The position numbers were made by a program, and so were the translations under genes. Source: Thuidium tamariscinum (taxonomy: Eukaryota > Streptophyta > Bryopsida > Hypnales > Thuidiaceae). From it: a DNA stretch of 64,000 bases. Of this stretch, positions 2,926 through 59,016 are shown piece by piece (within the stretch, counting starts at the first letter, position 1; each line of letters starts with the position of its first letter). The notes under the pieces are model-generated. The model did no database searches. It was not told the DNA's origin and saw only the letters and a program-made list of their open reading frames with translations. The stretch spans positions 11,038,501-11,102,500 of the forward strand of contig OX344755.2 in NCBI GenBank assembly GCA_947034885.2, read 5' to 3'.

Positions 2926-3464
2926 TAATCCCCCATCAGGAAAGTAACCCGCAATTGAAATATTACTGTTTTAGTAAGTATGAGGTATAGTTGAGTTATT
3001 TGTAAAGTACACGAAATTGGGGTTTAAACCCATGAGTTTTGTGAAAAAGCCGGTTGAGTTAAAAAAAAAAGTCGAAATAAAAGTGGGTATGGAACTTATT
3101 TTTCCATTAAAATGGTGCCTAAAAAAGTTTGGTCCCCACTTTTGAAGCCGTGTGACATAAATATCTTGCAAAAAAGTTTGATGCTTCATTTATAGTTGCC
3201 TTCTCAACTTCAAAAAAAGTCATGCCTAAAATACAAATAACTCAAGTATAGTATTGAATTTAAACTGCTTCAATACAAAAACAATATTACACCAATATTG
3301 TTTCAACAAAAACATTGTAATTGTATTGAAACAAACTAATTGGAATACTACTTTTGTTTTGCAATAGTATACTTTCTATATTGTATTATATAAACATTGA
3401 AGCAGTATTGCAACAATACTTAGACAATAGAGGAAGTACTTCTTGTTGTGTGAGTGAAAGTTAA

Positions 3465-3686
3465 CCCTGTAAGGACCCACTAGTCACCATGGAAATCATC
3501 TTTTTTGAAATTGTATGAATCATCTACTTTAAAAAAATTCAAATGTATTCATTAGAGACCAAATTACTATTCATGATCTCCCTTTTTAGCACAAAATTCC
3601 AAAGATAAACAATGACTCTTCTCTCTTCCATGCAAGACTTCTTTGTCATCCATCCAATCATTTTGACCCACAACATCCTTATAGGG
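3465..3686. mobile_element. TTAA-bounded element, family CCCTGTAAGGAC (222 bp)
   Basis: The left boundary is TTAA (3461-3464) followed by CCCTGTAAGGACCC. The right end is CATCCTTATAGGG followed by TTTA, a one-base-decayed TTAA. The interior is clearly homologous to 33374-33598 and 37743-37959, and in reverse orientation to 42991-43212, sharing the stretch around 'catccatc' and 'gacaaagaa'. Lengths of 217-225 bp in all copies support the boundaries. Confidence 0.65.
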
Positions 3687-4309
3687 TTTACCCAGCAATG
3701 TAAGAATTTTTTTCTTGAATTTTTGTATACTTTTGCTTATATTTTTATAAACATCCCTTTTTTCCCTAATTTTTTCAATAATTTCATTATACAAAAAGTG
3801 TGATTTTTTTAATTCAATCATTGGTTTCAATGAATAAAAAATTATGTGGTCTAAAAAAGCCTTTGAATCTCTTTGTTCATCCCAATTTTGGACTTTGGAT
3901 CACAAAGATAGGTAGATAACACTTTGAAAGCCTTGTATATTATAGAATTGGTCGGGCCATTATCAAGGATAAGGTAGACAAGTCTATTCCATTCTAATTT
4001 GCAATGATGCAATCTAAATATTTTGGGGCCAAGTCTAAGAGGGGCATACATTTTTCAAAGGTTTCACAAATCAAATCTAAGTGAAATTATAATTTTCCAA
4101 CTAAAATTGTAATTTCTATCAATTTCTCAAGTTTTTTGTCCATAATTACAAAATTGCCCATATAAGGAGGTTATAATGTCTTCCAAAACAACCTATAACT
4201 TCAATTCTATGCACCTATTAGCACTTGAGCATCCACCAATCAAGGACTAACACATTATCCAAGTTGGCATTAATACACTAAAATTGTCATAAAAGTAATA
4301 GTTTCAAGA

Positions 4310-4336
4310 ATATATATATATATATATATATATATC
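4310..4336. repeat. (TA)n microsatellite
   Basis: An uninterrupted TA run is followed by a short TG run. Similar TA runs occur at about 12002-12020 and 58664-58683. Confidence 0.9.
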
Positions 4337-5092
4337 TGTGTGTGTAAGGCTTTGAATCATTCCATTTTGATTAATGACATGAGAGTTATGAGGTGTTTTA
4401 GCTTGTCGGCAATCTCAATTCTAAACTAAATTTTGAACACCATTATTTAACTCTATTTTTAATATTTTTTGAAAAAAGTAAAATTATAGGATTTAGATTG
4501 TTCATGGAAACATTGCAACCACTAGAATTGTCATTTTACGATTCCATAACTAAAATATCCACAATTTAGCTCACTCATTTTCAACTTGTTTCTACTTACT
4601 ATTTTTTCCCTATATGTTGTACAATCCCAAATGATCTCAAAATTTTCAAGCATGCAACCAACTTGCTCTAAAGAATGAATACAAAGAAGTACCACTACTA
4701 TCAGCATTTTATCATGCAAATGTGCCCTTGTAAAGTGTAGCTACCTTGTTTTTTTGCATGGGCCAAAAAATGATTTCTGTCAATTTAAACACTAAAATCT
4801 TACAATCTACATGATGCAATTTCTTGAATTTTTTTTCCATGTCTTCTCTAACTAGCATACTATAAGATCCTATAGTTACATTTATTCAAATTGTCTTTTT
4901 CTTAAGTTTGGTACTTGTACTAAAAATAACAATTGTGGAACATTTTTGGTAAAAACATAGTCAAGAAACTTAAGGGGTTAAATTGATGTTCATTCTCGAT
5001 GGTGAGATTCATGAGAATAATATCAGCCGGGTGATGTGGCAAACTTTCATATTGATAAGCATTCCTTTCAATTTGCCAGGGATCTCTTGTAA

Positions 5093-5476
5093 GGGAGAAA
5101 CACCCATTTCCGTCCATGTACCTATTCTTGGACCCTAGAGTACCACTAAATCTGTCCATAAGCATTCATTAAAGCGTCCGACAAATGTTTAAATCTAATT
5201 TGCTGACGCAATTTTAAAACACATATATAGTTTTCATTCACTGACAGTTGATTTCAACAGGTGTTCAGTTAAAGATACACCTATAGGACGGTTCTAGTGG
5301 TCTAGGGAGCCAACACTTTGGAAATTTATAGAAATTACATACTGATTCTGAAAATTTTAATTTTTTTTGAATATTCATGATTTTCACTGGCTAATACTAG
5401 AAAAATATCATTTTTAGAAAAAGATGCCTCCAACTATGCTGAATTCCTTAAATGGACGGTTTTGGGTGTTTTGCCC
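5093..5476. mobile_element. TIR element with AAACACCC...GGGTGTTT ends, family A copy 1
   Basis: The left terminus GGGAGAAACACCC and right terminus GGGTGTTTTGCCC form an inverted repeat, followed inward by CCGTCCAT on both sides. Homologous copies lie at 38592-38973 (inverted orientation, nearly the same length) and about 13787-14161. The shared interior includes the tract around 'gagccaacactttggaaa' and 'cctccaactatgct'. No target duplication is clear. It carries no coding capacity. Confidence 0.65.
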
Positions 5477-7425: not shown

Positions 7426-7742
7426 GAGGCTTGGTTGGCATAGGCAAGACGTGAAATCCTACCATCAAAAGTGGGCCCATGAATGTAAATTTGGGTTCTT
7501 TGGAATAAAAGTGAAAAAAGACCCCTATTTTGTGTTGTGTCTAGAATATGTTCTACACCTCTCTCAACTAATTTGGAGTCTCTAATTAGAAGTGTGAATT
7601 CAGATTTTGAAAAACAATTGTTATTTACAAAAAATAAGAATTTGTTGCATTTTTCTTCAAGGTAAATCCATCCACCTTTGATGGTAGGATTTAACGTCCT
7701 CCTTGGCTCAAAGGATGCTGAATTGATCTTCTAAATTAACTT

Positions 7743-8468: not shown

Positions 8469-9012
8469 TTCCTAAGCATCTAGACTCATGTCCAAAATGA
8501 ACAATTTCAAAAGAATATTTTGGAATTCGTGTACAAATAAAAGTTGTAGACTTTGCGTTTTAGATTCCATCCATATAGTTAGATTCACCAATGCTATCAC
8601 TATTATATTTCTACAAATTTTGAAAGGAAAAATTCAAAATTCTTTCTAAATTAAATTACAAGAAAAATATTGTCATTTAAAAAAAATTATTTTAATGGAT
8701 TTGAAATGAGGGTCTCTTGGTATGGTGATTAAAAAAATTGTGTTCTTTGAAACTATGACCTTATTTTTGCAATTCTAGGTTTGAAGTAGAGTCAATGCAA
8801 TTTTGGCTTGGTCAACCACTTGACATACTTCCACATTTGTAATTTTAGAGAAATATGACTCTAATAACACCAAATCCAACCTTTGGATAGGACAACAACT
8901 TTATAAAATATCTCTAAAAATTAGGATGACTTTCATCCAAATTGTAATGAGAAAGAAACCTAATTTTCAACTTGTTCATCATCTAAAATTTGAACATTGA
9001 AGTGCTTCAGGG
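8469..9012. mobile_element. TTAA-bounded 544 bp element, copy 1
   Basis: TTAA at 8465-8468 and at 9013-9016 bracket 544 bp. The left end is TTCCTAAGCATCTAGACTC; the right end is GAAGTGCTTCAGGG. A homologous element in opposite orientation lies at 49941-50484, also exactly 544 bp between TTAA tetranucleotides. Identical bounds in two diverged copies argue that TTAA is the true target site. Confidence 0.8.
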
Positions 9013-10202: not shown

Positions 10203-10589
10203 TTAAAAGGACCTCTGGCAATGAAGAATGCGCACTTTGAAGTTGTCATAAGCAACCATTGGCAAGCCAAAAAGGTCTTAGGGACATTGAATATGGTATG
10301 CCACCCATACAACATCTGGCACCTAAGAGCCTTGTCAGAGTTGAAGTCCTCTAATTTTGTGACATTGGGAGCAACTTTTACCACAAGTAAGAACCATTTT
10401 AATGCTATTTATAGGTGGCGCTTTCAAGCATTGGGTGATAATGGGTGTATCCACTATAGTATGATGGGAGGGCCACAATGACAATGACAATGACCTCAAA
10501 AGAGGCAAATAGAACCCTATGATTAACACATGCTTATCCCCTCATCAAAAGTTTGCAACCATTAGATTTGGTAGGGGACCCCCCCCTAA

Positions 10590-11345
10590 ATCCTTAAATG
10601 CCTTTTCAAATGTATTCTGACTATGAAAAAAGAGCATTATCTTATAGTTATCCCTAATGAAGTAAATTCCTTTTTTTCCCCCAAATCTAACTATGTATAT
10701 GTTTAAAGAGCTTGTTTATTAGTATTTACACCAATTTTAAGTATGAAATTGCATAGGAGTTGTGAGAATATAATGAGAGTAAGGTACATTTTTTATTTTT
10801 AGTATGCTACCTTTTTCCACAATGTTTCAGAAATTTGCATATAAAAGTTTTTAAGGATTTGAAGTGTCATGGAAAAAATACAAAGAGTGTTAGTACACAA
10901 AAATGTACTTCCAAAAAACTGAATTTCACACAAAAAGCTATCAAACTCTGTACACAATTTACCTTAGAATTGTTGACATGCTATTTTTTTTAATTAGTAA
11001 AAATGACAAATAACTCTAATTCAACACTTGCATGTTTAATTTTCTCAATGGTGAAAATCATGAAAGTACTTTACTATTTCTATTGGGACCATTTTCAAAA
11101 CAGATTGGTAAGTATAATTTCTTGAATCTCAAATCAAGTGAAATTGACCAAGCTATTTATAAAGCCAAGAAATGAAGTAAAATTGGCAAGCCATATTTTC
11201 CATATATTCTACACATATGCCTTTGAAAACCTCTCAACAAATAAGTATGTACTTTTTTTAGTGAAAAATGAAAGTTTTCAATAGTTAATCCTTAAAATTG
11301 CCCCCAATTTTTTTAAATGGTCAAAAGAATTTAAGTGCTTATACA
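10590..11345. mobile_element. Decayed copy of the 40031-40894 element, inverted
   Basis: Blocks such as 'aaagagtgttagtacac', the TGCAAATTT-like tract and the 'agttatccctaatgaag' tract appear in reverse order and orientation relative to 40031-40894. Both TTAA ends are eroded, so the limits are approximate. Confidence 0.5.
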
Positions 11346-12820
11346 AAAACGAGCCTATAATATAAGATCAACAATATATGGTGGATCGGCCAATTAGAAG
11401 TTACCCCCCCCAAAACATTGATCAAATTTCCACTGAAAACACTTAGCCATTAAAAGGGATTTGAAGGCAGGAGAGGCCCATTTTAGGGCTATTCCCACAC
11501 TTGTCCTTTATGCTATCAAAAAACTACAAACTAGCCCTATTGACTGAATTTTTTGAAATTTTTTCCCCCAAAATTCTAAAATGTGTCAACAACCCTAAAA
11601 TTGAATTAATTAATTTTTTAAAATTAGTATTTTCTAATGTGACACTCTTTCAAACACGTCAAACTAGTGATGTGGCATGTTCTCAAAGTCCAAGAACTCA
11701 AAAAGACTTGTGGTCTCCCATTGCCCTCAATCAAATTCCTTCTAATGCATTGATTTCATAGATGGAAATATAGTCCTCCTTGTGTCATTGATCTTGATAC
11801 AAATCCTTATATGGATATGATTGCAATGTCAAGTGCTTCTTGAAGAATACAAATATGGAGGCAAAGATGGGATACTTTAACAAGCACTATTAAAGAATTT
11901 TGTTCATTAATTTAAACAAATATTTATTTTCAACTCATTGTCATTGTGACAATTTATCACAATGACAATGACACAATGACAATGACCTCAAAGAAGGCCA
12001 CTATATATATATATATATATTCAAATATACTTTCACAATTGATCCACTATGCACACAATATTAACTTTAATAAACTAAACATCTCAAGGATTTTTAGAAA
12101 TAATCATGATAATATTAGTCACGGCCTTCACATTGAAACAAGATAAGCATGATGCCATAAAGAGACCTTCTCGTGATCCCCTCCTCAAAAAGCGCTTATG
12201 TGACTATAGGAGAGGGCTCTAAAACCGAGTGGGCATTTTCAACCATCCAGTAGGGGCTCTGAAATGGACATGTGCTTTGAAAAAATGAACTCTGGATTAC
12301 AATAGATTACAATGGAGCATGATGAGATTTGTTTATACTTCTTCAATGGATGGTTTAAGAACCATTCTTGGTTCATTCCTAACTAGCTAGCTAGGTGTCT
12401 ACTAATTTAATTCAAAATAAGAATTCATTGTTCAACTACCTTCTTACAAGTATTGAAAAATCTGAAATAATGATTAAATCAAGCATTCATTTTAGATTTA
12501 GAAAGGGACAGTTCTAAAAACCATTTCAATTACTTTACACATGTTGCAATGCTAGTTTTTGAACAAGGTTTGCTTTTTTTCAAACTATGCATGGATGGGT
12601 TTCCAAGGGCCTATGATCACAAATAGGGACCTAGAGCAGATTGTGATCAGAAATTCATAACTAATTCAATAATGCTTCAAAAAATATGAAATGACTTGTG
12701 TTAGATTCCTCATCTATTTCTCTTTGACTGAAAAATAAGCTAAAAATATTTCCATCTCAGGAAGTATATGAAAAAAGCACATCAGCCCTTAAATGAGTGG
12801 TTTCTGAGCCTTATGTATTA

Positions 12821-13786: not shown

Positions 13787-14161
13787 AGACACCCAATAGT
13801 GCACGTGTACCTTGCATTGAACTCTAGACTCATCCAAAATTGTCCCTAGAGGCCTAGACTGCAGTTAATGTGTTTGCCAAATGCTTGACTCTAATTTGTT
13901 GACGCATATCAAGGACATATACCAAAATCTAATTGGCTCACTATTGATTCTAGCATTGTTTAGATTTGGAGACATCTATTGAATAGTTTTAGTAGGCTCG
14001 AGAGCCAACACTTTTGAAAATTATAGAAATTACATACAGCATTTGAAATCTTTTTTTTTAATATTCATAATTTTCACTTGCTAATACCACAAAAATATCA
14101 TTTTCAGAAAAAGCTACCTCCAACTATGCTAAATTATTTATTAGGACGGTTTTAGGTGTCT
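13787..14161. mobile_element. Family A TIR element, copy 3 (diverged)
   Basis: AGACACCC at the left and AGGTGTCT at the right correspond to the AAACACCC/GGGTGTTT ends of 5093-5476. The interior shares 'gagccaacacttttg' and 'cctccaactatgct' with the other copies. Confidence 0.6.
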
Positions 14162-14706
14162 CTATCGTATATCACACAAGTTTTCTGAACTTTGTCATTG
14201 GAATTTGGTCACATTGACAAAGCAAACCATACCTTGACAAGTAGAATTGTTAGTTTGTCCTCAAACTATTGTTGAAATTTTTATTTATTAAATTATAAAA
14301 TACATTAAAATAACTAATGTGAGAAATGGAGAGAGCAATTAAAATTATATTTTTTTCAAACAAATTAAAAATTTATTAAAAAATTTTGAAGTGTGTTGCC
14401 CTATTGGCCCTTGAAAGTCTACCTTCAAACCAACAAAAAGTCCATCTACATATAATGGTCATGATGTCACTTGATCACCTAAAGTTGTTACAAAGTATTT
14501 CCTAACATAGCCATAAACATGAAGGCCTCAAAGATTCATTTCATACAATGGATTTATACTCAAAAGGCAAAAGTTCCTATTGTAGGATGTTAAAGTAGTA
14601 ATTTGAAAGTCTATTCTTAAATCTCTAGGAAAACACTAGAATTTTTAAAAATTTCCACCCATAATAAAATTTCAAAGGTAATAGTATGTGAGCATGTAAG
14701 CCTTGA

Positions 14707-14739
<33 letters not shown>

Positions 14740-18300: not shown

Positions 18301-20465
18301 GAGCATCCCCATAGGACTCATGAAGTGAACTAACTCGGGGAATGGCCAAGCCTGAGCAAATAAATTGCCCCACGGGAGGTACGGCCAAGCAAAAAGAAAG
18401 GCTAGGCCCGGCCAAATTCAATGATGGCTCAATCGGGGGTGCTATTTTGTGAGCCTGCGAGCATAATCCTATAAGCTTGTAAGCTTGTGAGCCTAGAATT
18501 TTTGGTGAAATTTTTATTGATTTTTAGGATGTAGACTCATTACCATGCTTTAAGAATTTAGGATTTTTATATCTAGTAACCCCCTCGTGGGATTTGAAAT
18601 TCGTGACTTTCAGAACTTTTTTTTCAAAAAAAAATTTCAATTTTTTTTCAATTTTTTTTTCAATTTTTCAATTTTTTCTTGCAACTCCATCACTCTCCCA
18701 AAACCTTCTTGATATCAAGAGGGGTTTTGGAGGTAGCGGGCTTTGGAGCTTTCAAAACTTTTTTTTTTCATTTTTTTCCATTTTTTTCATTTTTTTTGCG
18801 ACTATGGCTCTTGTTCACTTTTTTTTGTGACTTTTCACCCTTCAAATCCTTTTCTTGGTACCGAGAGATCAATTTGAGGGTGATAAAGTCACAAAAAAAT
18901 TTAAAAATTTAAAAAAAAGAAGTATATATATATTTTTTATACTCCATCACTCTAGAATACCCCTTGTTGGATTCTGAATTTTGGACCTCCAAAAAATTTC
19001 ATAATTTCAAAATATTTTTGAGGGGGGTATTGAGAGGCCCTTTGGAGATAGTAGGGTTTGAAATTTTAAAATATCTTAACCCCTAAAGGACTAAAGTCCC
19101 CTCGGGGGACACTTGAAATTTCGGGTAGGCTTGTGTGACATGAATTTTTGCTATGATTTTTTGAAACTTTTTTTGAAGATAGGGAATCAGGTTAGCTTTC
19201 CAAAAATATAATTTTGATTTCAATTGGTGCTTGGAAGCAAAAGTTATGCCATTCTAAGTCCAAAAAGTAGTTCGCCGGGCGAAAAAAAAAAAAAAATTAT
19301 TTTAGTTTTAAAATTTTATTTTCCCAAAGATTATGTTTTGTTCTATATCTAAAGCTTTGGTTCATTTTATTTGTACTAATAATGAGAAAGTTATGAACAA
19401 TCTTGTATTTCGGGCAATCTAAGCACCTTCTTCAAAAAATAACTTATAGAATTCATTTTTGAATGCAATTTTTCAAATTTTTCAAATTTTCTTTTTTGAT
19501 AGGGTTTAGGATGCTTTCAAGAACAAGCTCATCTTTGGGATCATGGTTTTTCAATTACATCTTAAAGTTATTGACAACTTAGTGTTTTGTTCAATCTTGG
19601 ACCTACTTCTACTTAACAAATTTTTAATGAATGAAAATCAAGTAGTTTTTCTTGGAAATTTTTTCCCCTAATTCTCAACTCAAGTGCTCAACTTAAAAAA
19701 ATTTAACTTCATGGTCTATAGTGCAAAAAAATTCAACAAATGGCAGTCAAAGTCATCTGAAATTGCAAATCAGAGTTCAAAAAAACGTTTTTTTTCCAAC
19801 TTTGACTGCTAATATCTTCCAATCCATATGGTCAAACTTCATGAAATTCTTATTACATGATCTCAAACAAGTAATTTACAAGATCCTATGGTTAGATTTT
19901 AAGAAAATTGTTTTCTTTTGTTTTTTTAGGAAGAAGTAGCAAACATGGCAGTTTTGAGTGGTTTCAAGCCAGAAAATGCCTCAGTCCTTTAGGGGTTAAC
20001 TACACTTCCACGTTTATAGGTCCACGGTCATAGGGCTGAAATTTTACTATAAATAGACTTTTTTTAAATGACTTTTTTCTTTTCTTTTGGCCTAAAAATT
20101 TCAAAGTTTCTTTTAATTAATTTTTTGAGCTCACTAGACTTATGCTCACAACTCTCAAGTTCATGCTTTTAGGCTCACAAACTAGCGTCGTTGATGGCTC
20201 AGTCAAATGGTGAGAAGTTGGCCGGGCTCGATATGCTTTAAAAAATGAATTTAAATCCTCCTTTCGAGGTACTTTAGCATTGACTATGGGTTTATTTTCT
20301 TGAAATCCACAGCAAAGGTCCTCGAATTCCAAAATCCTTTGTTCCCCTGTGCTTCTTCGCCGTATTGGAGTGGGGGAAATATCTTTGGCCACACCGGGCT
20401 TCTTCAATGCCTTGGCAAGCATCCCCTGGCCGCACCTCTCCTGTGTGCAGCCCATGGGGATGCTC
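18301..20465. mobile_element. PIF/Harbinger-like non-autonomous element, GAGCATCCCCAT ends, TAA target
   Basis: The left end is TAA then GAGCATCCCCATAGG; the right end is CCATGGGGATGCTC then TAA. The 3 bp TAA duplication and GAGCATCCCCAT terminus match the smaller element at 39414-39544, so I read the 2165 bp span as one insertion. A TTAA-type element (19080-19995) is nested within it. The minus-strand frame at 20117-20455 inside it is not recognised as a transposase. Confidence 0.55.
19080..19995. mobile_element. TTAA-bounded element, family CCCCTAAAGGACT (916 bp)
   Basis: TTAA (19076-19079) then CCCCTAAAGGACTAAAG; right end AGTCCTTTAGGGG then TTAA (19996-19999). The terminal inverted repeat is about 13 perfect bases and then degenerates. 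A homologous copy of 856 bp lies at 36381-37236, with partial copies at about 26078-26634 and 9843-10202. There is no coding capacity for a transposase. Confidence 0.8.
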
Positions 20466-21456: not shown

Positions 21457-21698
21457 CTAGTGGATACTCCCCAAACTGACACTTTTTTTCCCTTGTTGTG
21501 CCTAATTATTGTTATTGTAAGTATAGTCCAATTATCATTGAATTTTCTTATTAGAAAGTGAAAGGAGGTTCCAACTCACCAAAGAAAAGGACACTTAGAA
21601 ACAATTTGAGAACATCTTCCACCAAAAGAAACTTGGATCCTCAATAGCTTTTGCATTTGGTGTCCTTGACATAGATACATATTGATTTTGGAGATGTA

Positions 21699-22861
21699 CA
21701 GTGGGGTACCAATCAAAATGTCGTTTTCGCATTTGCAGTGAGAAAAATTTCGGTACTGCCAACTTTGGAAGCCTCCCGCAAGCTCAAAAATTGGTATTTT
21801 ACCACGAAATTTTTACCACAGCATAATATATTTGAAATCTCCCAACAAGTGTAGTTTTGAGAAAATTTTCACAATTTCCAACTTTGACACCCTCCCAAGG
21901 GCTGAAAAATTGGTTTCTTACCATGAATTTTTTTGTGTGAAGTCACATCTATGTTGCTAATATGTGCTCCAAATTTCAAGTTCAAATGAATTACCAAAAC
22001 AAAAATATACAAAGTCTCCCAACATGTGTAGTTGTGAGAAAATTTTCACTATTGCTGACTTTGACACCCTCCCAAGGGCTGAAAATTTGTCTATTTAACA
22101 TGAATTTTTTTGAATAAGATCAACTTTATGTTGATAATATATGCTCCAAATTTCAAGTTCAAAACACTTACCCAAAAAAAGATATTCAAAATCTCTCAAC
22201 ATGTGTAGTTGTGAGGCTAAGTTTTTACATTCGTGTCAAACTTTGCTCCACAAAATAACACTATACTAAGGGCTCAAAAACTCCTCCTCACAACTACACA
22301 TGTTGGGAGACTTTGTATATTTTTTTTTTGGTAATTCATTTGAACTTGAAATTTGGAGCACATATTAGCAATATAGATGTGACTTCACAAAAAAAAATTC
22401 ATGGTAAGAAACCAATTTTTCAGCCCTTGGAAGGGTGTCAAAGTTGGAAATTGTGAAAATTTTCTCAAAACTACACTTGTTGGGAGATTTCAAATATCTT
22501 CTTAAAAACAAATTTTTTTACCTTGAAATTTTTTATACATATTGAAAACATAGAGATTGTTTCATAACAAAAATTTCATGGCAAAAAAAAACAAACTCAA
22601 TCCTTAGGAAGGTGTCAAAGTTGAAAGTAGTGAAATGATTCTCACCACTACCCATGTTGGTAGATTTTGAATAACTTTTTTTTGGTGAATATTTTGGCCT
22701 TGGAACTTGTCATACATATAGTTAACTTAAATATTATGATGTGGTAAAAATTTCGTGGTAAAATACCAATTTTTGAGCTCACGGGAGGCTTCCAAAGTTG
22801 GCAGTACCGAAATTTTTCTCATTGCGGATGCGAAAACGACATTTTGATTGGTACCCCACTG
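21699..22861. mobile_element. 1163 bp fold-back element with CAGTGGGGTACC ends, TA target
   Basis: The left terminus is TA then CAGTGGGGTACCAATC; the right terminus is GATTGGTACCCCACTG then TA. The terminal inverted repeats extend about 80 bp or more with few mismatches. Inside, 21839-22038 and 22287-22486 form a further 200 bp inverted repeat. Sub-units of about 177 bp, each starting near CTCCCAACA(A/T)GTGTAGTT, are arranged in tandem on each arm, with starts at 21839, 22017 and 22194. The TACAGT-type terminus and TA target suggest a Tc1/mariner relationship. No transposase frame is present. Confidence 0.8.
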
Positions 22862-23354
22862 TACACCAAATGATGATGGTGGGTTTAGGCAAGTTATAAT
22901 TGTTTTGGTTTACCCACTTTATAATGTCCAAAAACTAATTAGAGCATCCCCATTGCAACACAGTGAAGGACATCAAAGAGGACCTTCTTGTGCCATAGAA
23001 AATCAATGGTGCAAACTCACCATTAGAAAGCAATTATGTCAAATTGCTCTCGGGCTACTCTAAGAGCATCTCCTCTAGTCCTTGAAGTACCCAAACCTTC
23101 TAGTTTTTAGATGACAAGTAATCAATTTAAGTAGGTAGCATGTTTTACTTTCACTTTAGATTGCCAAATTTGTCATATTTGAAGGGGTCACTAATCCCTC
23201 TACAAACTATATTTTCTTTTAGGATTAGCAAGTCATCGTAATAAATGATAGCTTACTTTTTGCTTTTGCAAGTTATGTGACTTGTGATTGATTAGAAGTG
23301 TATTTTAGTCAATTGTATTGTTGGGATACCAAATTGGACCATCCCTTTTTTCTT

Positions 23355-37742: not shown

Positions 37743-37959
37743 TCCTGTAAGGACGGGTTGGTCTTTGTGGAAATCATACTTGTTGAAACCATAGGGATCA
37801 TCTACTTGAAAATTTTCAAAAATATTCATTGGAGACCAAACGACTATTCATGACCTCACCTTTTTGCACAAAATCCCAAGAATGAACAAATGCAATTCTA
37901 TCTTACAAGAATTTTTTGTTATCCATTGGACACTAAGTATCCATAGCAACCTTATATGG
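37743..37959. mobile_element. TTAA element, CCCTGTAAGGAC family (217 bp)
   Basis: TTAA (37739-37742) then TCCTGTAAGGACGGG; right end CCTTATATGG then TTAC. The interior matches 3465-3686 and 33374-33598. An inverted partial copy precedes it at about 37365-37535. Confidence 0.65.
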
Positions 37960-38100
37960 TTACAAGGATGAATTTCACAAAATAGAGAACATAAGTGAGA
38001 ACTTCCGTGCACACGGGAACAATTAACAAGTTCATAATTTGTTGAGGTGTGGCATTTGAGTTAGTGGCACTTCCTGGTGCCCTTCTTGGCTTCAATACTA

Positions 38101-38525: not shown

Positions 38526-38591
38526 TATATGTTTTCTTTTTGGAACAAGGCAACATTAAATCTGCTCAATAGTAAAGATCAGTTCTTGTAC

Positions 38592-38973
38592 GGTGGAAAC
38601 ACCCAAAACCGTCCAAATAAGGAATTCAGCATAGGTGGAGGCAACTTTTTCTGAAAATGATATTTTTCTAGTATTAGCGAGTGAAAATCATGAATATTAA
38701 AAAAAATTTAATTTTTTGGAATCAGTATGTAATTTCTATAAATTTTCAAAGTGTTGGCTCCCTAAACCACTAGAACTGTCCTATAGGTGTACCCTAAACT
38801 TAACTCTGATGAAATCAGTTGTCAATGAATGAAAATCATACATGTGTCTTACAACTGCATCAGCAAATTAGAATTAAACATTTGTCGGACACCTTAATGA
38901 ATGCTTATGGACAGATTTAGTGGTATTCTAGGGTCCAGGAATATGTACAGGGACGGAAATGGGTGTTTCTCCC
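38592..38973. mobile_element. Family A TIR element, copy 2 (inverted relative to copy 1)
   Basis: GGAAACACCCAAAACCGTCCA at the left and GACGGAAATGGGTGTTTCTCCC at the right correspond, in reverse complement, to 5093-5476. The internal alignment is continuous and the lengths agree within a few bases. Confidence 0.7.
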
Positions 38974-39413
38974 TTACTCCCAAAAGACAAATGAAAGAAA
39001 TAAAGAAAGCATTGAAGTGTCGAATTGCAAATTCACAAGTAAGCTTTACTTCTTCAGTATATAAGGTCTCAACTAATTTCCTTTTTTCCACCCTCCTACT
39101 TTCATATCGCCTTTGTTATATTGTTATGTATTCATCAACTTATCAGATATTGATATTCATAGATCTTGTATATATATAGTAATACAGTAATCTTATTATA
39201 ATCTTGAACATAGTAATATGACATCAAAATTGTTGTACTCAGTCCGGAGCAGTAATTACTGAAGAGATTTATGTGTTATCACTCAAAAATAGCAAAGCTG
39301 ATGTTAAATTTTTTTTGCACTAGCAAAATGTCAGAATCAATTTCATTATTGACACCCATTTGAACGTCTTTTCCAAAGATCTTCAAATGGGTGTCCCTAT
39401 GGTTCTGGTGTTA

Positions 39414-40030: not shown

Positions 40031-40894
40031 CCCCTAATTGCCCAATTGCCCAATTGCCCATATATAGTCCATCTAAAATTTCAAGCCCATTTTTGTGTGG
40101 GTAATTAAATTCTTTTGATTGTTAAATTTTTTTTTTTGGGGGGGGGGGGGGGGGGGGCAGTTTTGAAGGTCAACTAATGAAAACTTTTTATTTTTCACTC
40201 AAACAAGTACATATTTGAATATTGGGAGGTCTTCAAAAGCATGTGTACTGTAAGTGGAGTGTAAATCTTGCCAATTTTACTTCATTTCCCAGCTTTATGC
40301 AAAGCTTGGCAATTTCACTTGATTTGAGAATTGAGATCTAAGAGATTGTACAACACTTTGCCATTTGCTTTGAGAATGGTCCCTATGAAAAGTTTAGAGT
40401 CTTTTTGTGATTTTCACCATTGAAAATTTCAACATGCAAGTGTTGATTTGAATTTATTTGCAATTTCTACTTATAAAAGAAAATTGCATTTCCACAATTG
40501 CAAGGTGGATTGTGTAATGAGTTTGATTTTTTTCGCATGTGAAATTATGTTTTTTGGAAGTGCATTTTAGTGTGTAAACACTCTTTGTAGTTGTTCATGT
40601 TACCTCCAATTCCAAAAGAAATTTATATGCAAATTTTTAAAACATTGTGGAAAAGACAACATACTAAAAGTAAAAAATGTACATTTCTCTTGGTATAATC
40701 TTACAACTCCTATCAAATATTGCACTCAAAATTAGTATACATACTAGTAAATAAGCTCTGTAAATATCTATGCAATTAGATTTGAAAAAAACAAACAATT
40801 TGCTTCATCAATTTGCTTCATCAAGGATAACTACAAATCAATGTTCTTTTTTTATAGTGAGAAACACACTTGGAAAGGCTTAGGCATTTAGGGG
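40031..40894. mobile_element. TTAA-bounded element, CCCCTAAATGCC family (864 bp)
   Basis: TTAA (40027-40030) then CCCCTAATTGCC; right end GGCATTTAGGGG then TTAA (40895-40898). A short tandem (CCCAATTG, three units) follows the left end. A decayed inverted copy lies at about 10590-11345. It contains the G20 tract. Confidence 0.75.
40138..40157 (+). repeat. G20 homopolymer preceded by T11
   Basis: Twenty consecutive G follow eleven T. Such a tract can form G-quadruplexes and is prone to slippage; the exact length may be a sequencing or assembly estimate. Confidence 0.85.
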
Positions 40895-42467: not shown

Positions 42468-42792
42468 CCCCTAAAGGATTAACATGGTTTTGACAATGGA
42501 GGTTTTCAATCAATTCTACCACTTTGATATTTTTTTGCACATAGATGTAATTAAATTTTTTAATTTTAACCATACAAAAGTAAAGATTACTATATCTAAT
42601 ATGCATGGAATTAATTGTAGAAAATTTTAACCATTAGATCTGTAGATTATAACAATTTTTAATTGAGATTTGTAAACTTCTTTTTCTACAAGATCTTATT
42701 TTACAAAATATTGAGATTTGTTTCACCCTTCTGAGAAATTGCCATTGAAAACTTTGAAGAGGACACATTACGTCCTCTTAATCCTTTAGGGA
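42468..42792. mobile_element. TTAA-bounded element, CCCTAAAGGATTAA ends (325 bp)
   Basis: TTAA (42464-42467) then CCCCTAAAGGATTAAC; right end TTAATCCTTTAGGGA then TTAA (42793-42796). The inverted repeat is 14 of 14 after the first base. Its interior is unlike the other families. Confidence 0.8.
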
Positions 42793-42990: not shown

Positions 42991-43212
42991 CCCTGTAAGG
43001 ACGCCGCGCACTAGAATAGTCCGATGAATGACAAGGGATTCTCCCATGTAGGACAGAAATGCAATCATTCACCCTCGGTTTTAGGAGTGGAAAGTAGAGA
43101 TTTTCTACAATTCTTTGACTTCAATTTAGTTTTTTTGAATATTTTATTATCAACAATTTCCATGGTTTTAGAAATGCTGAATTCCACAGGGACCCATTGC
43201 GTCCTTACAGAG
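42991..43212. mobile_element. TTAA-bounded element, CCCTGTAAGGAC family (222 bp, inverted)
   Basis: TTAA (42987-42990) then CCCTGTAAGGACGCC; right end GCGTCCTTACAGAG then TTAA (43213-43216). The interior is the reverse complement of the 3465-3686 type. Confidence 0.8.
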
Positions 43213-45457: not shown

Positions 45458-45898
45458 CTAAGCAGTCAAAATGACCGCACCCCCGGCCTCCTTGATCTTC
45501 TTCTCAGCCAGCTTGGAGAAGAACTTGGCCTTCACGACTATCGGCTGCGTCGGCAAGTCACCCTTTCCGAGAACCTTGAAGTACCCGTGCTGAGTGACGT
45601 CCAAGAGAGGAGCGCTGCTGTCTCCATTCGCCTTCTCCTTCACGGCCGCCGGCACCAAAGACCACAGCTTATCAATGTTGACAATAGGGCAGTGGAATTT
45701 GTTCATTGTCTTGTGGAAGTACCTCATACCGACTTTGCCAAAGTATCCAGGATGGTACTTGTCGAAGAGAATCCGGTGGTGATGCATACCTCCGGCATTA
45801 CCACGACCTCCAGGATGCTTGCGGTGCTTGCCCACACGCCCGTGCCCGGCGCTCACGTGTCCCCTTTTCTTCCTGTTCTTCTTCAGTCGGGTCGTCAT
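45458..45898 (-). CDS. RPL27A: 60S ribosomal protein L27a (uL15)
   Basis: An intact, intronless 146-codon gene. It begins [20 protein letters not shown] and ends [14 protein letters not shown], the usual plant length and ends for cytosolic uL15. The Gly/His/Arg-rich N-terminal segment (residues 8-45: [24 protein letters not shown] then MHHHRILF) is the rRNA-binding extension. The globular part follows, with [15 protein letters not shown] and [14 protein letters not shown]. It is a core component of the large cytosolic subunit. I chose the ATG at 45898 because the protein family starts with MTTR; an in-frame ATG 25 codons upstream (45973) would add residues absent from the family. No disruption is visible, so it is probably functional, although an intronless copy could in principle be a retrogene. 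Confidence 0.97.
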
Positions 45899-48212
45899 GG
45901 TCACTTTCCTGGCGTTCTCTTTCGGAGCTCCTCCGAGAAAACCACAGGAAAGCAAACAAAGAGACCGATGCAATACAGAACCTCAGCATTTGTGAGCTCC
46001 GAGCCCTAATTTTCTGTCGGACGGCCTAGATCCATCCCGCGATGGCACCGCATCCAAGCCGTCCACAGTCTGCAATGGATATCTACGGCTTCGATTACGA
46101 ATTTGAATGAATGAAAAACGTCTGACATTCGTCAACCCTCCAATCCATACCTTCCATCCATCCCTGGGGAATGAGCCTAGAGTGTGGAGCTTAAAATATA
46201 AAATGTAGGTGTGGTGAGCCTTGACATTGTTTTAGAGGTGATTCTTTATAGTATAAATATCCTAAGAAAGTGTAGATAGGCATTAGAAAACCATTGAAGG
46301 TACCCTATTACATAAGACATCTTATAAATAATGTTATACATAGGTATATTGTAACCACAGAAGGTGGTTTACACTCCATGCTCCCACTCTATGATTATAT
46401 ATTAACAATGCTTGTTTCATAGCATTTGGACCTATGGTGTTAAATATATTAAAATTTGAAGTTTTCAAGAATTAGGATACTAGAAAATTATTTTTATTTT
46501 TATTTTTAATGAGGTTAAAGAAGTCCTTACCGTTACTTTTGACATCACAATGGCTATGGCAATAGTAGAGAGCACTCTAATCCATACCTTAAGTTAGGTA
46601 GTTTGTTTTGTTTATTTGCATCATTTTGTTGTGTTTTTATAGCATTGGAGAGCTTTCAATAAGAAGAGGTGAAAGAGCTTTGTTTAATGACGTTTTGACC
46701 TATAGTGTCAAAGTTATAGAGTTTTAAATTTTTTGTGAATTAAAAAATTATTTTTAATTCTAATTTGGTTGTAGCTATAGAAAATGGCACACTAATCCAA
46801 ACCTTAAGTTAGGCTATTTATTTTATTTGTTATGTTTTCTACATTGAGATCTTTAGGATTATACGTCTCTTAGTCATATTATTGATTTTGTTGGAAAGCT
46901 CTTAGCAAGGAGGGGGGAATTAGCTTTGTTTTGTGGTATTTAGACCTATAATGTGAAAGATATTGAATTTTGAAGTTTTTTAATGATTAAAAACTTAGAA
47001 AATTACTTTCACTTCTATTTTGATTGTGACAATGGTACAAGGCACACTAGTAGTTTGATGAAATCCAATATCTTGCAATACCATTCATATTAAGCAATTC
47101 TACACACTCTTGCATAGAACCAACACATGAGACTATTTTTAATATATTGGCTAATGAAGTATATATATATTTAAATATGTTTGGATATATTATGAAATTT
47201 TGAAAGTCAACTTCATGAAGTATCCTAAATTGTTTCCTTCATGTACACATTTTGACTATTTTTGAACTACTTGGATGTACATATTTTCAAGATTGATTTA
47301 TAGTTTAAGTTCATTTTAAGTACTTCTACCTTAATAATTGATTTTAAGGACTTCTATCTAAATAAACATTGGTTTGAGTCATACTCATTTTTATTTACAT
47401 TAGTTTCATGATTTCTTGTTTGACTTTATTAAAAGTAAAAGAAATGTTTAAGAAAAAGTCAAGTATCATCATTACCCAAAAAAAAAATTTGAAACATCAT
47501 ATTAGTGTTACAAAATTTGATTCAAATCATGTGAAATTATCTTAAGAGATTTTTCAATAGAAAGAAAAGAGCCAATATAGAATTGTTTCAATTCTACATT
47601 GGATTTTTCAAAATTATATTGTTATGACATTGTAACATTGATCCCATTATAGTCTCAAGCAACATCTTGGTACATTGATGCATGCTTAAGTTTTTACACA
47701 AATTTAGCAATTGGTCACCTAAAATTGAGATCCATTTGTCAATCTTGTAAAGAAACTATAAATCGTTTAGAATCTTCACATGATTTTATTGACTTTTATA
47801 ATTTGCTAATGAGAAGGTCTTCTTATTATTTCAAATTTTTACAAAATAAACACAACTAATAACTATATAATTTGAGAGAGAATGGATCTAAAAGAACATA
47901 TGACAAGTCACTAATATTTGTATACAACTATACTTTTCAATATCATCTATATTGAAATGTGCCACTAAAATAATATAAACCAAAAGTTCAATATATACAA
48001 TACTTGGTTTAATTTTGGAACTACTATTGTAAAAACCTTGGTATGAACAATCAATCGATCAACAAATTCATCATCTATGAGTTAACTTTGTTACTCTAAT
48101 AAATGGTTGGTTTAATTATATCCATTGAGTTGTACTTTAACCTCTATATGCCTGAAGTGTCATATTTCAGTGTCAACAATAGCTAGAAGATAAAGAAAAT
48201 CTTACAAGTGTA

Positions 48213-49940: not shown

Positions 49941-50484
49941 CTCTAGAGCACGTCAACATCCACTTTTTGGATGATGTGCAAAACAAAATTGAGATTTCTT
50001 TCTCATTACAATTTGGATGAAAGTCATCTTAGTTTTTAGAGATACATTATACAATTGTTGTCCTATCCAAAGGTTAGATTAGGTGTTACCAGAGTAAATA
50101 TTTTTCTAAAATTACAAATGTGGAAGTATGTCAAGTCGTTGACTTGTATTGACCCTAATTCAAACTTGAAATTTCAAAAATGAGGTCATAGAATCAAAGA
50201 ACCCAAAAATTCCAAAAAATCACCATGTCATGTCAAGAGAAACTCATTTCAAGTCCATTCCAACAAAATTAACTCAAAAAATGATCATATTTTGCTTGTA
50301 ATTGAATTTAGAAGGAATTTTAAAATTTTCCTTCCCAAATTTTTAGAAAAGTATTAGTGAATCTAACCGTATGGATAGAATCTACAACTCAAAATCTACA
50401 ACTTTTATTTGCATCTCAATTCCAAAATATTCTTACCAATAGTGCTTTATGATGATTTTTCAAATGAGTCTCGACGCTTAGGGG
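49941..50484. mobile_element. TTAA-bounded 544 bp element, copy 2 (next to the J-domain gene)
   Basis: TTAA (49937-49940) then CTCTAGAGCACGTC; right end GAGTCTCGACGCTTAGGGG then TTAA (50485-50488). It is the reverse-orientation homologue of 8469-9012. Its right end is 91 bp upstream of the first ATG of the J-domain gene, so it forms part of that gene's proximal promoter region. Confidence 0.8.
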
Positions 50485-50610: not shown

Positions 50611-50628
50611 ACGTGCTGCCTTTTGGCC

Positions 50629-53560
50629 ATGGGGGCCATCGCTCCTTGCTGGTCGCATCATTCTTCGGACCTCTCCCCTCTCCTCTCGTTTTGCAATTCC
50701 TCACAACCATCACCCTGCGATCTTTCTGTGAAATTGAAGAGGAAGCATGGCAGTCTAGGTCAAGACTGTTCCACGAATTCGGCCGAAATTCATGAAAATT
50801 CGGGACACTGGAGGCGTATGCCGAGATTGATCTCGTCGTTGCCCTTGGGGATTGGGGGTGGACTAGGGTGCTGGAATGCTCGACTGGAGCTCAGGTATTT
50901 AACCTAGCTTTTTAAATTCGGATTCGGATTATTTTTTGGACCTATGCACGCAATGCTCTTTACGGATTCTGGCGGGATAGAATTCGGTTCCATCTGAATT
51001 ATGTTATTTTCGCAATATGATCGTCGAATTGGTCATGTTCGAACCCGTAGTCCCTTAGGGGTTCAGAATTTTCGAGGGATTTGGGGATAGGGTTAGAGTG
51101 AATTTTGGTCTTTTCTTGTAGCTGATGGTCGTTTCTTTTCTTGAATTCCTAGTCGACCACAGCAATGTGGAATTTTACTGACTTCATAACAAGGTTATCT
51201 AATACGGAGTAGAATTTTCCAACTTCATGGCTCTGTGAGAATCTTTATTACCTCAAGGATCAAGAGACTCCGTATGGGCCAAATGGTCTTTTGGCTGGTT
51301 TGAGTTGTCTTATGGCGACTTCATATGTTCAATTTGGACCAACGCATGCAATGTTCTTTACTGATTCTGTTATCATAGAATTCGGTCCCTTCTGAATTCT
51401 GTTATTTTCACAATATGACCAATCGAGATGATCGTTTCCGAACTATAAAACCCTTGGTCATATTTAGGGGTTAAGAGCTTTCGAGGGATTTTGGGATAGG
51501 GTTAGGGTGAATTTTTTTTTTCGCACAGTTGATGGCCATTTCCTGTGCTCAATTCCAATTTGAACAACAATGTGCAGTTCTTTATACTTCATTGCAAGGT
51601 CATGTAATAGAATTTTCCACCTTCATGGGTCTTTTTTACTACTTGCATTGTTTGAACCTTCCACCACCGTGTTCATGCAGGTTTACGAGTCTTAAACGGT
51701 TGACAGAAATCGAGGGAAAATCTTTCAATTTATCTAGAAGGTGGTACATATACAAGTCTAGGTTTATTTGTGCTGCAAGAAGAGAAGAGGATGGCGGGAG
51801 GCAAGAAAGGAGCTACTCAGAGGAAGTTGATGTGGTGGATCATTACAAGGTGCTCGGCTTGCGCCGCCAAGCGACAACCTCCGCTATTAAGTTGGCCTAC
51901 AGGCAGCTCGCTCGACAGGTCCAAAATTCACTGTCTTCTTGATTCACATTGGCATTGCCAAAGTTTTCTGAAACTCTTGTCGATTATCAGCAAGATCACT
52001 TACTGTATGCAATCTTGCTTGATCCTAAGCACAATGTATAGATCAATAAATGTTCATCTATGCAGATGTGAGCAATTTTGGTTTTTTTGCAGGCGTCTCA
52101 GTATACACAATGTTTTGATTGCCTAGAGGATGAACTGAAAACGTTGAGATTGAGAAATGAACTTAGAAATAAGTATTTACACGTTTGATGGTGTGCAGTT
52201 GCATCCAGATGTGAATAAAGACGTGGATGCCAATGAAAAATTTATGAGCGTTCGTCTTGCGTATGAGGTGCGTTACCTGCTTATATGTGTATCTCTGATA
52301 ATCTTTCCATCGCTTGATAACTTCATGCTTCTGGTTGAGCTTTTACTCTATACATGTAAATATATACTTTGCATTTGGAAATGAGAGCGCAAGCTCATTT
52401 AAACCGTACCGTTGTGTGGTAGGGAATCCATTTTCGTGGCTTTCATCTTATCATTAGAATGGACTCATCTCCTGTATCCCATTCTTAGAATGGATTTCTT
52501 TACTTGGTCTTGTCTCCATTTCAAGAGGGTTCCAATGCATTAAAGTATGTTGGATTTGGGTGCTGTACCTCAAACTTCAGCAAGGATCCAATCTTGAGCC
52601 TTCGCTACCCCTGAACCATTATGGTGCATTTCATGGAAGTATGTTTGACTGTGATAGATCCTAGAAGTATCTTATTTCTTACAATTCATGTGTTTGGATG
52701 CCACCTGGATTGTGAATGGGTGACTTTTCGATCACGGGGAGGGAATCCCACGTAAATGGGTTCCCTACTTCAAGTATCTTCTGTGAGAGTTACCTCTAAC
52801 GACTTGGTTTTTAAAATTTCTTCAGGTTTTATCTGATGAGACAAGCAGGAAATTGTACGATAGCTCTTTGCAGGAGCAAGTCAAGGCATCTCGAAGAAAA
52901 CAGGTATATCAAAGAAGAGAGAGAGACATGTGGTCACGGTCACGTCCCAACAAATCTCATTACAGAAGAGCCCCGTTATATCAGAATGAGGATTGGAGTT
53001 ATTCAGTGTATTCTTATGAAAGCGAGTATTCTAATATGGAGAGTTACTATTACACCTACCCCACTAGTGGCACGTTTAGCAACATCAAGAAAAAATCATC
53101 CAGAAATTATTCAAACCGTGGAAAACCCCGGCCTGGAGAAGAAGATGGAGAAGAAGATGGAGAAGAGGAGGAAGAAGAACACATGAAGCAATTGGATTTG
53201 GAGCGTATTGGAAGGGAGGGGTTGTTGTTTCTATGGGTGGTTTCGGCAATGTGGCATGCCTTGGGTGCCCAGACTTCTTTGAGTCTACTTGTAAGTGCAT
53301 TGGCCCTTTGGAAAGACTTTGGAGTAGGTTACAGGCTTGCTTCTGGAGTGGCGTGGTTAATGGGAGGAGAGAAAGGTCTCGCTCTTATTGTTGCACTCAT
53401 AGTCACTACCAGAGTCTTGGGAAAGGCGTATCATGCTGTAGCTGCGATTGTGGCCTTGGCACTCTGGTTAGGTGGTGGAGTTCTTAAGGCTTTTCCATTA
53501 CCACACGGAGCAATCCTTGTGTTGGTGTATAAGTGCATACAGTTGCAGTCATCGATGTAA
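50629..53560 (+). CDS. J-domain (DnaJ-type) co-chaperone with acidic linker and C-terminal membrane segments; four exons
   Basis: Exons are 50629-50894, 51681-51918, 52199-52267 and 52826-53560. All junctions are GT-AG, phases agree, and the product is 435 residues ending in TAA. The N-terminal 130 residues are Ser/Arg-rich and transit-peptide-like. The J domain (about 141-204) shows HYKVLGL, the helix II AIKLAYRQLARQ, the Hsp70-stimulating HPD (170-172) and helix III ANEKFMSVRLAYEVLSD. A Tyr/Ser-rich stretch (about 248-270) and an acidic run (about 295-310) precede several hydrophobic segments between about 322 and 430, likely membrane helices. J proteins stimulate the ATPase of Hsp70 partners; here probably at an organelle membrane, plausibly the chloroplast. 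There is no zinc-finger or C-terminal substrate domain, so it is a type III (DnaJC) protein; I cannot assign an orthologue. The ATG at 50629 follows an in-frame stop. Confidence 0.87.
50939..51640 (+). repeat. Tandem duplication of about 400 bp within intron 1 of the J-domain gene
   Basis: 50939-51240 and 51338-51640 align in order: GCACGCAATGCTCTTTAC / GCATGCAATGTTCTTTAC, ATAGAATTCGGT, TTCGAGGGATTTGGGGATAG, GCTGATGGTCG / GTTGATGGCC, then TAGAATTTTCCA. The offset is about 400 bp. Copy 2 ends just before the acceptor of exon 2 and contains an alternative in-frame ATG (51532). Confidence 0.8.
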
Positions 53561-56575: not shown

Positions 56576-56691
56576 TCATGAAAATAGAAACCTAAACATG
56601 TGCTGTCGAAATGGTCGGTATCCGCAATCGACGGATGATTTAATACGATGTCAGCCAAGAGTGCCAAGTCATCATCGTGAGTCGTCATCAA

Positions 56692-56727
56692 TGACGTCAT
56701 CATCATGATGTCAGCAGTATGACGTCA
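56692..56727. promoter_or_regulatory. Two perfect TGACGTCA palindromes
   Basis: TGACGTCA occurs at 56692-56699 and 56720-56727, within a run of GATGTCAG/GTCATCA words from about 56645. A third copy lies at 27969-27976, downstream of the HIT gene. These match bZIP (TGA-factor, C-box type) binding sites; no nearby gene obviously uses them. Confidence 0.35.
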
Positions 56728-57112
56728 GAACCAAGTTACAGAAGGCATCCATTTACTGGCGAGCCGGCTTAGAACTTCATTTAGAAAGTGGAGGGGCACA
56801 AAGTTGGATGATTCAGCCTCCATTTTGAGGGGAAGGTATACTTGCCTATTAGCAAGCAGATTTGCTATTTGGTTATCTCGGAGAAGCTATTTGTCAACTC
56901 ACATATTTTTCTAAGACTGAGAAATTTGAGGGAAGCTTTTTGTGAGTAGAATGAGGACCTCTTGATAAAAAAAATGAATTTTTTTGTACTTTTTCAAAGT
57001 TTGTTGGGACTGAATTGGTATAATGTCGGTAGACCCATGCTAAACCACACTTATATGTCTCCTCCTAAGTGCATTGTGTCATGATGCTAAAGGATAGCTC
57101 AGATTGTGCTAA

Positions 57113-58069
57113 CCCATTAAGGACTGGCTGACCACTTTTTGGTTGATATTGACACTTTTTTTACTAGTAGTCAAAGTTTTTAAATGAATTTGGATATAGA
57201 CAAAAGAAGATGTGGAGAATGGCAAATCAAATGCATTGGAACAAAAATTACAACAATCTTTACTAGCATGTGGTTTATGAGTTGAAATAACTAACAAAAT
57301 TTAAGCTTAAAATACAAAAATCTTCCACTAAGAGAATCTTCAATGGCCAAAAAATTTAATGTAGAAGTCCAAGTATTTATGCCAATTTTATTATTATGGT
57401 TAGATCTTCAAAATGCATCACAATTTGTTACTCCCTCTATCCCAAAATAAGCTTCCGAATCTCTTCTCTTTTAGAGATTAACTCTGTTTTGAATCAAAGT
57501 TTCAAAAGTTCGAGCATTTAAAAATGAATAACCTATGTCTAAAATCTATGCAAAATTTGGAGCTTAGGTAGTGTCGTTTAGGTACCCAAAATGCAAGTTG
57601 AAAGTGGGATTTTTAACATCTTTTATAATTGTTGCCAGCTCCATCAATTTTATTGGTTTACAGGGTTTTGGCTACAATGGGATTCTAATAAGATGTTCCC
57701 CAATCTAAATATACAAAAGTTAAAAATTAGCCCACTTTATTATCAACTTTTAATAGCTCCAAAGTAGGCACTAAATAAGTCATTAACATTGCTATTTTAG
57801 GAAGCATTATGTAAAAGTTGTCTCATACTACCACTTAAAACCAAGTTTGCAAGGCCAATGAAGTGCACTTACATTATTTCACTTGCCCCTTTAAGGTCAT
57901 TTAGTCAAACATCCAATTGATTTTGAATGGTCAAAATCAAAAGGACTTTTTTAGTGGGATAGAAGATCTGCTTGATTTGGACGCTTTTTACGGGATAGAG
58001 GGAGTATTTTTTTTCCATGTTTAGCTTGGGGCTAAAAATGTTTTGTCCACCTCAAAAATCCTTAATAGG
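57113..58069. mobile_element. Probable TTAA-type element carrying a nested Stowaway MITE
   Basis: CTAA then CCCATTAAGGACTGG at the left; AATCCTTAATAGG then TTAA (58070-58073) at the right. Removing the nested Stowaway leaves about 383 bp. The left TTAA has one mismatch. Confidence 0.5.
57431..58004. mobile_element. Stowaway-type MITE (574 bp), TA target
   Basis: TA then CTCCCTCTATCCCAAAATAAG; right end TTTTTACGGGATAGAGGGAG then TA. A second internal terminus-like word (TAGTGGGATAGAAG, about 57952) suggests a small internal duplication. It is longer than most Stowaway elements. Confidence 0.8.
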
Positions 58070-59016
58070 TTAACGGATGTATGACTAACTTATACAAATG
58101 AGAGGGACCAATAGATGTTGCGATTTGGTGACTGATGGCTTTGAATTGTTCTACCTTGCATAACTTAATACTCCAAATTATTTATCTTGAAAAGTTGTTA
58201 AGGACACAAAACATCATTTGGGTGACTCGACCACAAATTGTAGGATTCAAAAGAGATAGAAAAAAACATTTGTTCATCAAATTTGGAGAAGATGTTGATT
58301 AACAAAAAATTTAGTGAATAGTATTGCAATCATTTTGTATTATAGTATAGTATAAAATACATGTATATTGAAAATTCTAGATTTTTGAGTATCTATATAT
58401 TTTGTATTTGATATGAATTTTCTTCATTTTTTAAAAACATTCATAGTACTCTCAAACTTTATGACTTGTATTAGAAATTTCATCTCTAAAAAATAAATGA
58501 ATTTCTCTGGTATCCTTCATATCTTGTTGCATAATGGTAACAAAGAAAGTCATAGATATTGAAGCTTGAAATCAATGATTATTGATTTTTCCTTTTAAGA
58601 TTAGCACCTTGTAAGGATGTTTAATAAGGAAGTGACAACCAATAATCCTACAACCAAAATGCAGTTTATATATATATATATATTTGTGTGTGTGTTTTGA
58701 GTGGCTTGTTTTCAATAGGAATTTTTTGGAACAAAGGAGGCTTGTCTTTCCTTTATAAAGTTGGGTCATTTGTGGAAGAATTAACTCTAACAAGTTGAAA
58801 ATCTTTTGGTAAAACTATAAAAGCAATAAATCACCCAACTCTTACAATTTGTTAGGTTTTAAACCAATATTGTCAATCATGTATTTAGACTTGCATCTAG
58901 ACAAGTATCTAAAAATGATTAGGAATAGATGAATTAAAAGCTGCTGCTTAGACCAACTTATACATTTAACTTGATGTGCAAATCTTGCTAGGAGAATGTT
59001 CCCCTCCAAATCTTGA

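Follow-up and report, generated by a model that had tools for sequence, protein, structure and literature searches.

Elements at the locus

A 64-kb window of the genome of the moss Thuidium tamariscinum (the whole stretch of 64,000 nucleotides analysed here, positions 11,038,501 to 11,102,500 of contig OX344755.2) contains several families of short elements that lie between TTAA tetranucleotides and carry CCC...GGG ends or decayed forms of them. These elements are almost certainly miniature inverted-repeat transposable elements (MITEs) of the piggyBac superfamily, presumably mobilised at TTAA by transposases of autonomous elements located elsewhere in the genome. A preliminary description of the window had listed seven intact elements with TTAA on both sides, and all seven intervals were indeed found to be immediately flanked by TTAA at both ends. 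The elements and their further copies in the window, with terminal inverted repeats (TIRs) where noted, are as follows.

8469-9012, strand not assigned: non-autonomous element, 75% identical to 49941-50484 in inverted orientation; flanked by TTAA at both ends, the left of which is decayed
19080-19995, + strand: 916-bp MITE; TTAA on both sides; TIR CCCCTAAAGGACT, 13 bp without mismatch; homologous in its ends to the autonomous, transposase-bearing element at locus L029
33374-33598, + strand: 225-bp MITE (CCTTGTAAGGAC...); TTAA on both sides
40031-40894, + strand: 864-bp MITE; TTAA on both sides; CCCCTAA ends
42468-42792, + strand: 325-bp MITE; TTAA on both sides; TIR CCCCTAAAGGATTAA, first 13 bases matched 12/13
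42991-43212, + strand: 222-bp MITE; TTAA on both sides; TIR CCCTGTAAGGACGC, first 13 bases matched 12/13
49941-50484, strand not assigned: 544-bp MITE of the 8469 family; TTAA on both sides
3461-3654, + strand: copy of the 33374 family; TTAA on the left only (3461-3464)
10583-11395, - strand: decayed copy of the 40031 family, found by blastn
26076-26632, + strand: decayed copy of the 19080 family, found by blastn
36381-37236, + strand: copy of the 19080 family; TTAA on the left, TTCA on the right
37743-37968, + strand: copy of the 33374 family; TTAA on the left, TGAA on the right

The elements had been described as starting with CCC and ending with GGG or a decayed form of it. A strict CCC start is present in four of the seven (19080, 40031, 42468, and 42991) and a strict GGG end also in four (8469-9012, 19080-19995, 40031-40894, and 49941-50484). 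The remaining ends are decayed, on the left in 33374 (CCTT), 49941 (CTCT), and 8469 (TTCC) and on the right in 42468 (GGGA), 42991 (CAGAG), and 33374 (CAAGG). There are 490 TTAA sites in the window; CCC directly follows eight of them and GGG directly precedes 13, compared with 0-4 such neighbours for each of five other AT-only tetramers (438-1017 sites each). A strict scan for TIR pairs matching in at least 11 of 13 bases at a tetramer found seven TTAA-adjacent pairs, which included four of the listed elements (19080, 40031, 42468, and 42991).

The limits of the elements were also examined by blastn, with the seven elements and their 60-base flanks as queries against the available sequence. 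The search returned 32 rows outside the elements themselves (two of the copies, L002 and L003, are one and the same), and copies were ~65-83% identical. An alignment end reached an element edge in 27 cases, and in 20 of these it halted either at that edge or inside the adjoining TTAA, as expected if homology between copies stops at the target site. The preliminary description had reported no transposase frame in the window, and a profile built from seven transposases of the same genome likewise found none there at E 0.01.

Transposase-bearing elements elsewhere in the genome

A transposase of the DDE_Tnp_1_7 type, which the preliminary description had suggested looking for, is present in many copies. 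A six-frame search of the genome (363 Mb in 19 contigs) with PF13843 (DDE_Tnp_1_7) gave 659 first-look candidates, and 116 matches were scored. All 116 lay above the curated cut-off (E <=1.4e-70, best 5.7e-80) and were distributed over contigs C1-C10. Twenty of the 116 loci were fetched with ~4 kb on each side. In 18 of these 20, TTAA together with CC...GG inverted repeats (at least 10/16 matched) enclosed the transposase, and CCY-starting TIRs were likewise present in 18. The next best of the other 255 tetramers served as a bounding pair at only two of the 20 loci. In other words, the piggyBac-like signature that had been read from the window surrounds a PF13843 transposase, and the termini around it are of the same kind as those in the window. 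The autonomous elements delimited in this way are ~5-6 kb long.

Further evidence for the type of transposase comes from the proteins themselves. When two of the transposase proteins were compared with Pfam, PF13843 scored 266 and 270 bits, no other family exceeded the cut-off in either, and thus no linked transposase of another superfamily was encountered. A search of the Protein Data Bank (PDB) with the transposase profile returned just two chains at E up to 0.1, piggyBat (9c0f, 5.8e-55) and piggyBac (6x67, 2.3e-54). Three aspartates (D172, D277, and D393 of transposase A2) were invariant in all seven aligned transposases, an alignment that includes the near-identical pair L038/L040, and they aligned with Asp residues of piggyBac and piggyBat. 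We take them to be the catalytic DDD triad. A cruder motif scan recognised all three Asp motifs at 11 of the 20 loci. In the cysteine-rich C-terminal part, C490, C493, C504, C509, C513, and H518 were also invariant in all seven, and this tail matched that of piggyBat weakly (7.1 bits). The transposases were 30-52% identical between the families compared. Some PF13843 matches contain internal stops, and the frames of L021, L024, L028, and L030 are broken among the fetched loci. A viral carrier was sought in viral contigs with the seven-transposase profile; 47 stretches matched the pattern, and none was confirmed.

A direct connection to the window is provided by L029. This autonomous element of 5,135 bp has both ends in common with the 19080-19995 family, matching it at 79% over 114 nt at the left end and at 72% over 309 nt at the right end. 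The ends of 40031-40894 gave no convincing alignment to L029.

Termini and target site across the genome

The signal of TTAA-linked termini across the genome is overwhelming. The pattern TTAACCCN{1,5}TAAAGGA occurs at 7380 places, compared with 33 for the reversed pattern, and the 13-base terminus CCCCTAAAGGACT occurs at 1172 places, compared with two for its reverse. This terminus stands directly after TTAA in 1023 of the 1172 places (87%) and after VTAA in 34. Pair spacing was judged on the first 100 listed places of TTAA plus the 13-base terminus. Twenty-seven neighbouring inverted (+/-) pairs among them span 908-926 bp, whereas neighbours in the reverse order within 6 kb numbered two. The constant spacing identifies one MITE family of fixed size, and these pairs bear out the expectation of the preliminary description that many copies would carry TTAA at either end. 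Five terminal motifs of the window and the 20 transposase loci directly follow TTAA in 7/12, 17/20, 16/19, 8/14, and 6/10 of their occurrences, and their reversed versions gave 0, 1, 0, 7, and 0 matches; the motifs overlap one another and six of the 20 loci are near-identical copies. The TIR motifs grade into one another (CCCCTAAAGGAC, CCCCTAAATGCC, CCCCTAAACGCC).

What does a site look like without an element? The flanks of 26 insertions were joined and aligned to available sequence, and two joined sites (L038 and L031) were informative. The L038 junction aligned to three unoccupied relatives of the same repeat, all in the window, and in each of them TTAA stands there once.

38589-38976, - strand: unoccupied relative of the repeat that hosts the L038 element; single TTAA at the junction
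5090-5471 and 13789-14171, both + strand: further empty relatives of the L038 host repeat; single TTAA at the junction

The expectation of empty sites with a single TTAA was therefore borne out by the three L038 relatives and not by the relative of L031, which reads TTAG.

Recent movement in an old population

A 5,088-bp element is present in six copies (L031-L036), which each occupy a different TTAA-flanked site and differ by only 0-3 bases in 15 comparisons. An identical segment of ORF1 (an upstream frame described below) is found at 11 places in the genome. L038 and L040 are also near-identical (99.5% over 580 residues), and L026 and L027 are closely similar (98.5% in ORF1). The 0-3 base differences among the 5,088-bp copies indicate that movement of the piggyBac elements has been very recent. 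The population is also old, judging from the 30-52% identity of the transposases and the ~65-83% identity of the MITE copies.

An upstream frame, ORF1

A second open reading frame, ORF1, lies upstream of the transposase and contains a module of ~120 residues. A profile built from ten loci, with the L038 and L040 sequences left out, matched 19 of the 20 fetched loci, L038 and L040 included; L029 was the exception. The same profile gave no match in the window at E 0.01. A genome-wide search with a single ORF1 started from 244 first-look candidates; 150 of them were scored, and all but one of these matched at E <=0.001 (149 matches). ORF1 was located upstream, on the same strand and within 6 kb, for 58 of the 116 transposase matches, and for none of the 116 was it downstream or on the opposite strand.

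Substitutions were assigned to codon positions in five diverged family members. An excess of third-position substitutions was present in the ORF1 frame at element positions ~600-1080 and again at 1320-1440, the stretch between them showing no clear frame, and in the transposase frame at ~1440-4080, where it was weak at 2040-2280. The switch of frame lies close to the ORF1 stop at 1491 and occurs without an evident gap. An intron might separate ORF1 from the transposase frame. A splice-donor-like AG|GTGAG is present at or near the ORF1 stop in L021, L023, L030, and L035 and was not seen in L025. In L035, ORF1 (L035:2455-3276) overlaps the transposase frame. ORF1 is probably either a second element protein or the N-terminal part of the transposase, and its role may lie in binding the element ends or in regulation, for example. 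No Pfam family matched ORF1, and its profile found nothing convincing in the PDB. The best rows there were glucocorticoid receptors (E 0.012), a likeness taken as chance. We know of no such upstream frame in animal piggyBac elements, and the conservation of ORF1 suggests a second component beyond those of the animal elements.

Origin of the window elements and alternative explanations

By every sequence feature tested, the elements described here are members of the piggyBac superfamily, with an unusual architecture and recent activity in a land plant. How might the window elements move? The MITEs may be deletion derivatives of autonomous elements or look-alikes with piggyBac-type ends, and they would be excised and inserted at TTAA by transposases from the ~5-6 kb autonomous elements, acting on them in trans. 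The excision of piggyBac is of a hairpin type and seamless, and by analogy that of the moss elements may be so as well. On balance, we narrowly favour a broader proposal, namely that mosses keep an old, still moving branch of piggyBac, whose two-frame elements, with ORF1 working together with the transposase, feed thousands of TTAA MITEs.

Several observations weigh against assigning the window elements to piggyBac. Subterminal homology to a transposase-bearing element was found in one window family only, and the other families are tied to such elements by the TTAA target, the CCC start, and the graded terminal motifs alone. In the strict pair scan, AATT outscored TTAA with 13 pairs against seven, although the AATT pairs shown lie mostly inside one unrelated palindrome at 21.7-22.9 kb, and a lax scan (9/13, 256 tetramers) left TTAA outside its top six. 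Because of the AATT excess and the ranking in the lax scan, the window alone is suggestive, not decisive. Seven of the 27 edge-reaching alignment ends overran TTAA by 1-24 bases, the longest overruns (24 and 18 bases) being patchy. Across the genome, 149 of the 1172 CCCCTAAAGGACT termini are without a preceding TTAA, through decay or chance. No TIR pair was found at L022 and L028, where ORF1 is near the edge of the fetched stretch, or at L045 and L046, two later loci with shorter flanks. Finally, 24 of the 26 joined sites were uninformative on empty sites, and the L031 empty relative, a neighbouring repeat copy, reads TTAG, while the other three of the four relatives read TTAA.

Could another TTAA-based system account for the elements? 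It is unlikely, but conceivable, that the MITEs are remains of another TTAA system, old and now extinct, and that piggyBac is a later invader which happens to share the motif. The MITE copies are far less uniform than the nearly invariant 5,088-bp element, and most window families are without a proven partner, as such a history would predict. However, both ends of L029 are common to the 916-bp family, the TIR motifs form a graded series, and the deep divergence of the transposases is as expected of a long-resident population. Kolobok and Sola3 are other TTAA-targeting eukaryotic DNA transposons, and an origin of the window elements from either is highly improbable. Kolobok is reported from chlorophytes and rhodophytes, and Sola is named among plant superfamilies, in the available parts of PMC9587614 and PMC9033089, respectively. 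Kolobok ends are nevertheless given as 5'-RR...YY-3' in the same part of PMC9587614, in contrast to 5'-CCC...GGG-3' here, and the TTAA bounds enclose a PF13843 transposase, whose profile retrieved piggyBac and piggyBat alone from the PDB at E up to 0.1.

The TTAA might also be a mere appearance, produced by a Tc1/mariner (Stowaway-like) element with a TA target and a TIR starting with A. Stowaway MITEs are listed for plants in the accessible text of PMC10004981 and PMC9033089, and TTAA contains TA. The outer base should then vary, whereas 1023 of the 1057 NTAA-preceded termini have T there and 34 have some other base, which rules out a TA target; the transposase is also of the wrong type, and the probability left to this explanation is negligible. 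PIF/Harbinger (Tourist) elements, with a 3-bp TAA/TTA direct duplication, were rejected, as the left TAA and the right TTA are not direct repeats and the three empty relatives keep one TTAA. The assignment of the window elements to piggyBac is thus retained.

The preliminary description had further raised the possibility of an undescribed plant lineage. No description of moss piggyBac elements was found among the matches listed from the open-access literature, nor any Repbase report, which is not proof of novelty. Six TIR superfamilies (Tc1-Mariner, hAT, Sola, MuDR-Foldback, PIF-Harbinger, and CACTA) are given in a 2022 review of transposable elements in land plants, and the word piggyBac is absent from its main text as available (PMC9033089). 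Other papers, as far as their available text goes, have already named piggyBac for plants in passing, which weighs on the novelty. PiggyBac takes up one row, 122 kb in 1230 pieces, in a table of fern repeats (PMC6890710), a 2024 review that follows Wicker et al. includes PiggyBac in the superfamilies of plants (PMC10794571), a further review counts it among angiosperm MITE superfamilies (PMC10004981), and piggyBac is said to have been isolated from plants (PMC10813416). In the available parts of these four papers, plant piggyBac appears without a transposase, ends, or empty sites. The lineage may be called undescribed to the extent that the open-access literature was covered.

If the broader proposal on mosses is true, piggyBac would join the six TIR superfamilies of land plants as a seventh, and with a new architecture. 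Several deep piggyBac lineages in a plant would extend the range of hosts in which the superfamily is proven. They would also offer a transposase adapted to plant cells; piggyBac, a leading genome-engineering transposon, was taken from animals, where it is best known.

Other features of the window

A nested set of long inverted repeats at 21695-22865 resembles a foldback element (arms of 135 nt at 96% and 214 nt at 98% complementarity); no connection to the TTAA elements is drawn. A ribosomal protein uL15/L27a frame (45458-45982, - strand) lies between MITEs, and the best PDB matches of its uL15 product are chains of plant ribosomes. A light-harvesting protein encoded in the genome matched 8htu_U and 7xqp_a best among single-domain PDB chains (455 bits, against 440 for the following chain), and both entries are from the moss Physcomitrium; by summed score, two long chains of 9vfj with multiple repeats stood higher. 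These genes point to a land plant, probably a moss. Open frames at 52787-53560 (+ strand) and 63481-63975 (+ strand), of 257 and 164 residues, have no Pfam match.

Comparison with known systems

Nine transposases of the genome stood apart from piggyBat and piggyBac in an 11-row tree, in which the animal branches were very long. Because the animal references are only two and very long, the tree cannot tell vertical descent from transfer, and the moss elements raise the question of whether they descended vertically or came from animals, fungi, or algae. PiggyBac-like MITEs of corals likewise use TTAA, in an animal host (PMC2872659, in the part available). The haptophyte alga Tisochrysis lutea is a photosynthetic host with six or seven families of TIR/PiggyBac elements; it is not a plant, and a linked MITE population is not mentioned in the available text (PMC5963040).

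Two animal transposases of known structure are also among the closest systems. PiggyBat, a bat element for which we know of no upstream ORF1, has a homologous catalytic core and a weakly homologous tail (9c0f). The piggyBac element IFP2 of Trichoplusia ni has TTAA as its target and CCC-starting ends, as in the moss elements. Its transposase (6x67) shares the PF13843-type core with the three aligned Asp residues, and the homology runs from profile position 37 to 510, reaching into the first part of the cysteine-rich tail. The two systems differ in size and architecture. IFP2 is 2472 bp long in the available text of PMC10803768, compared with ~5-6 kb here, and its chain has 594 residues, whereas the moss elements have a longer transposase frame and an extra frame upstream of it.

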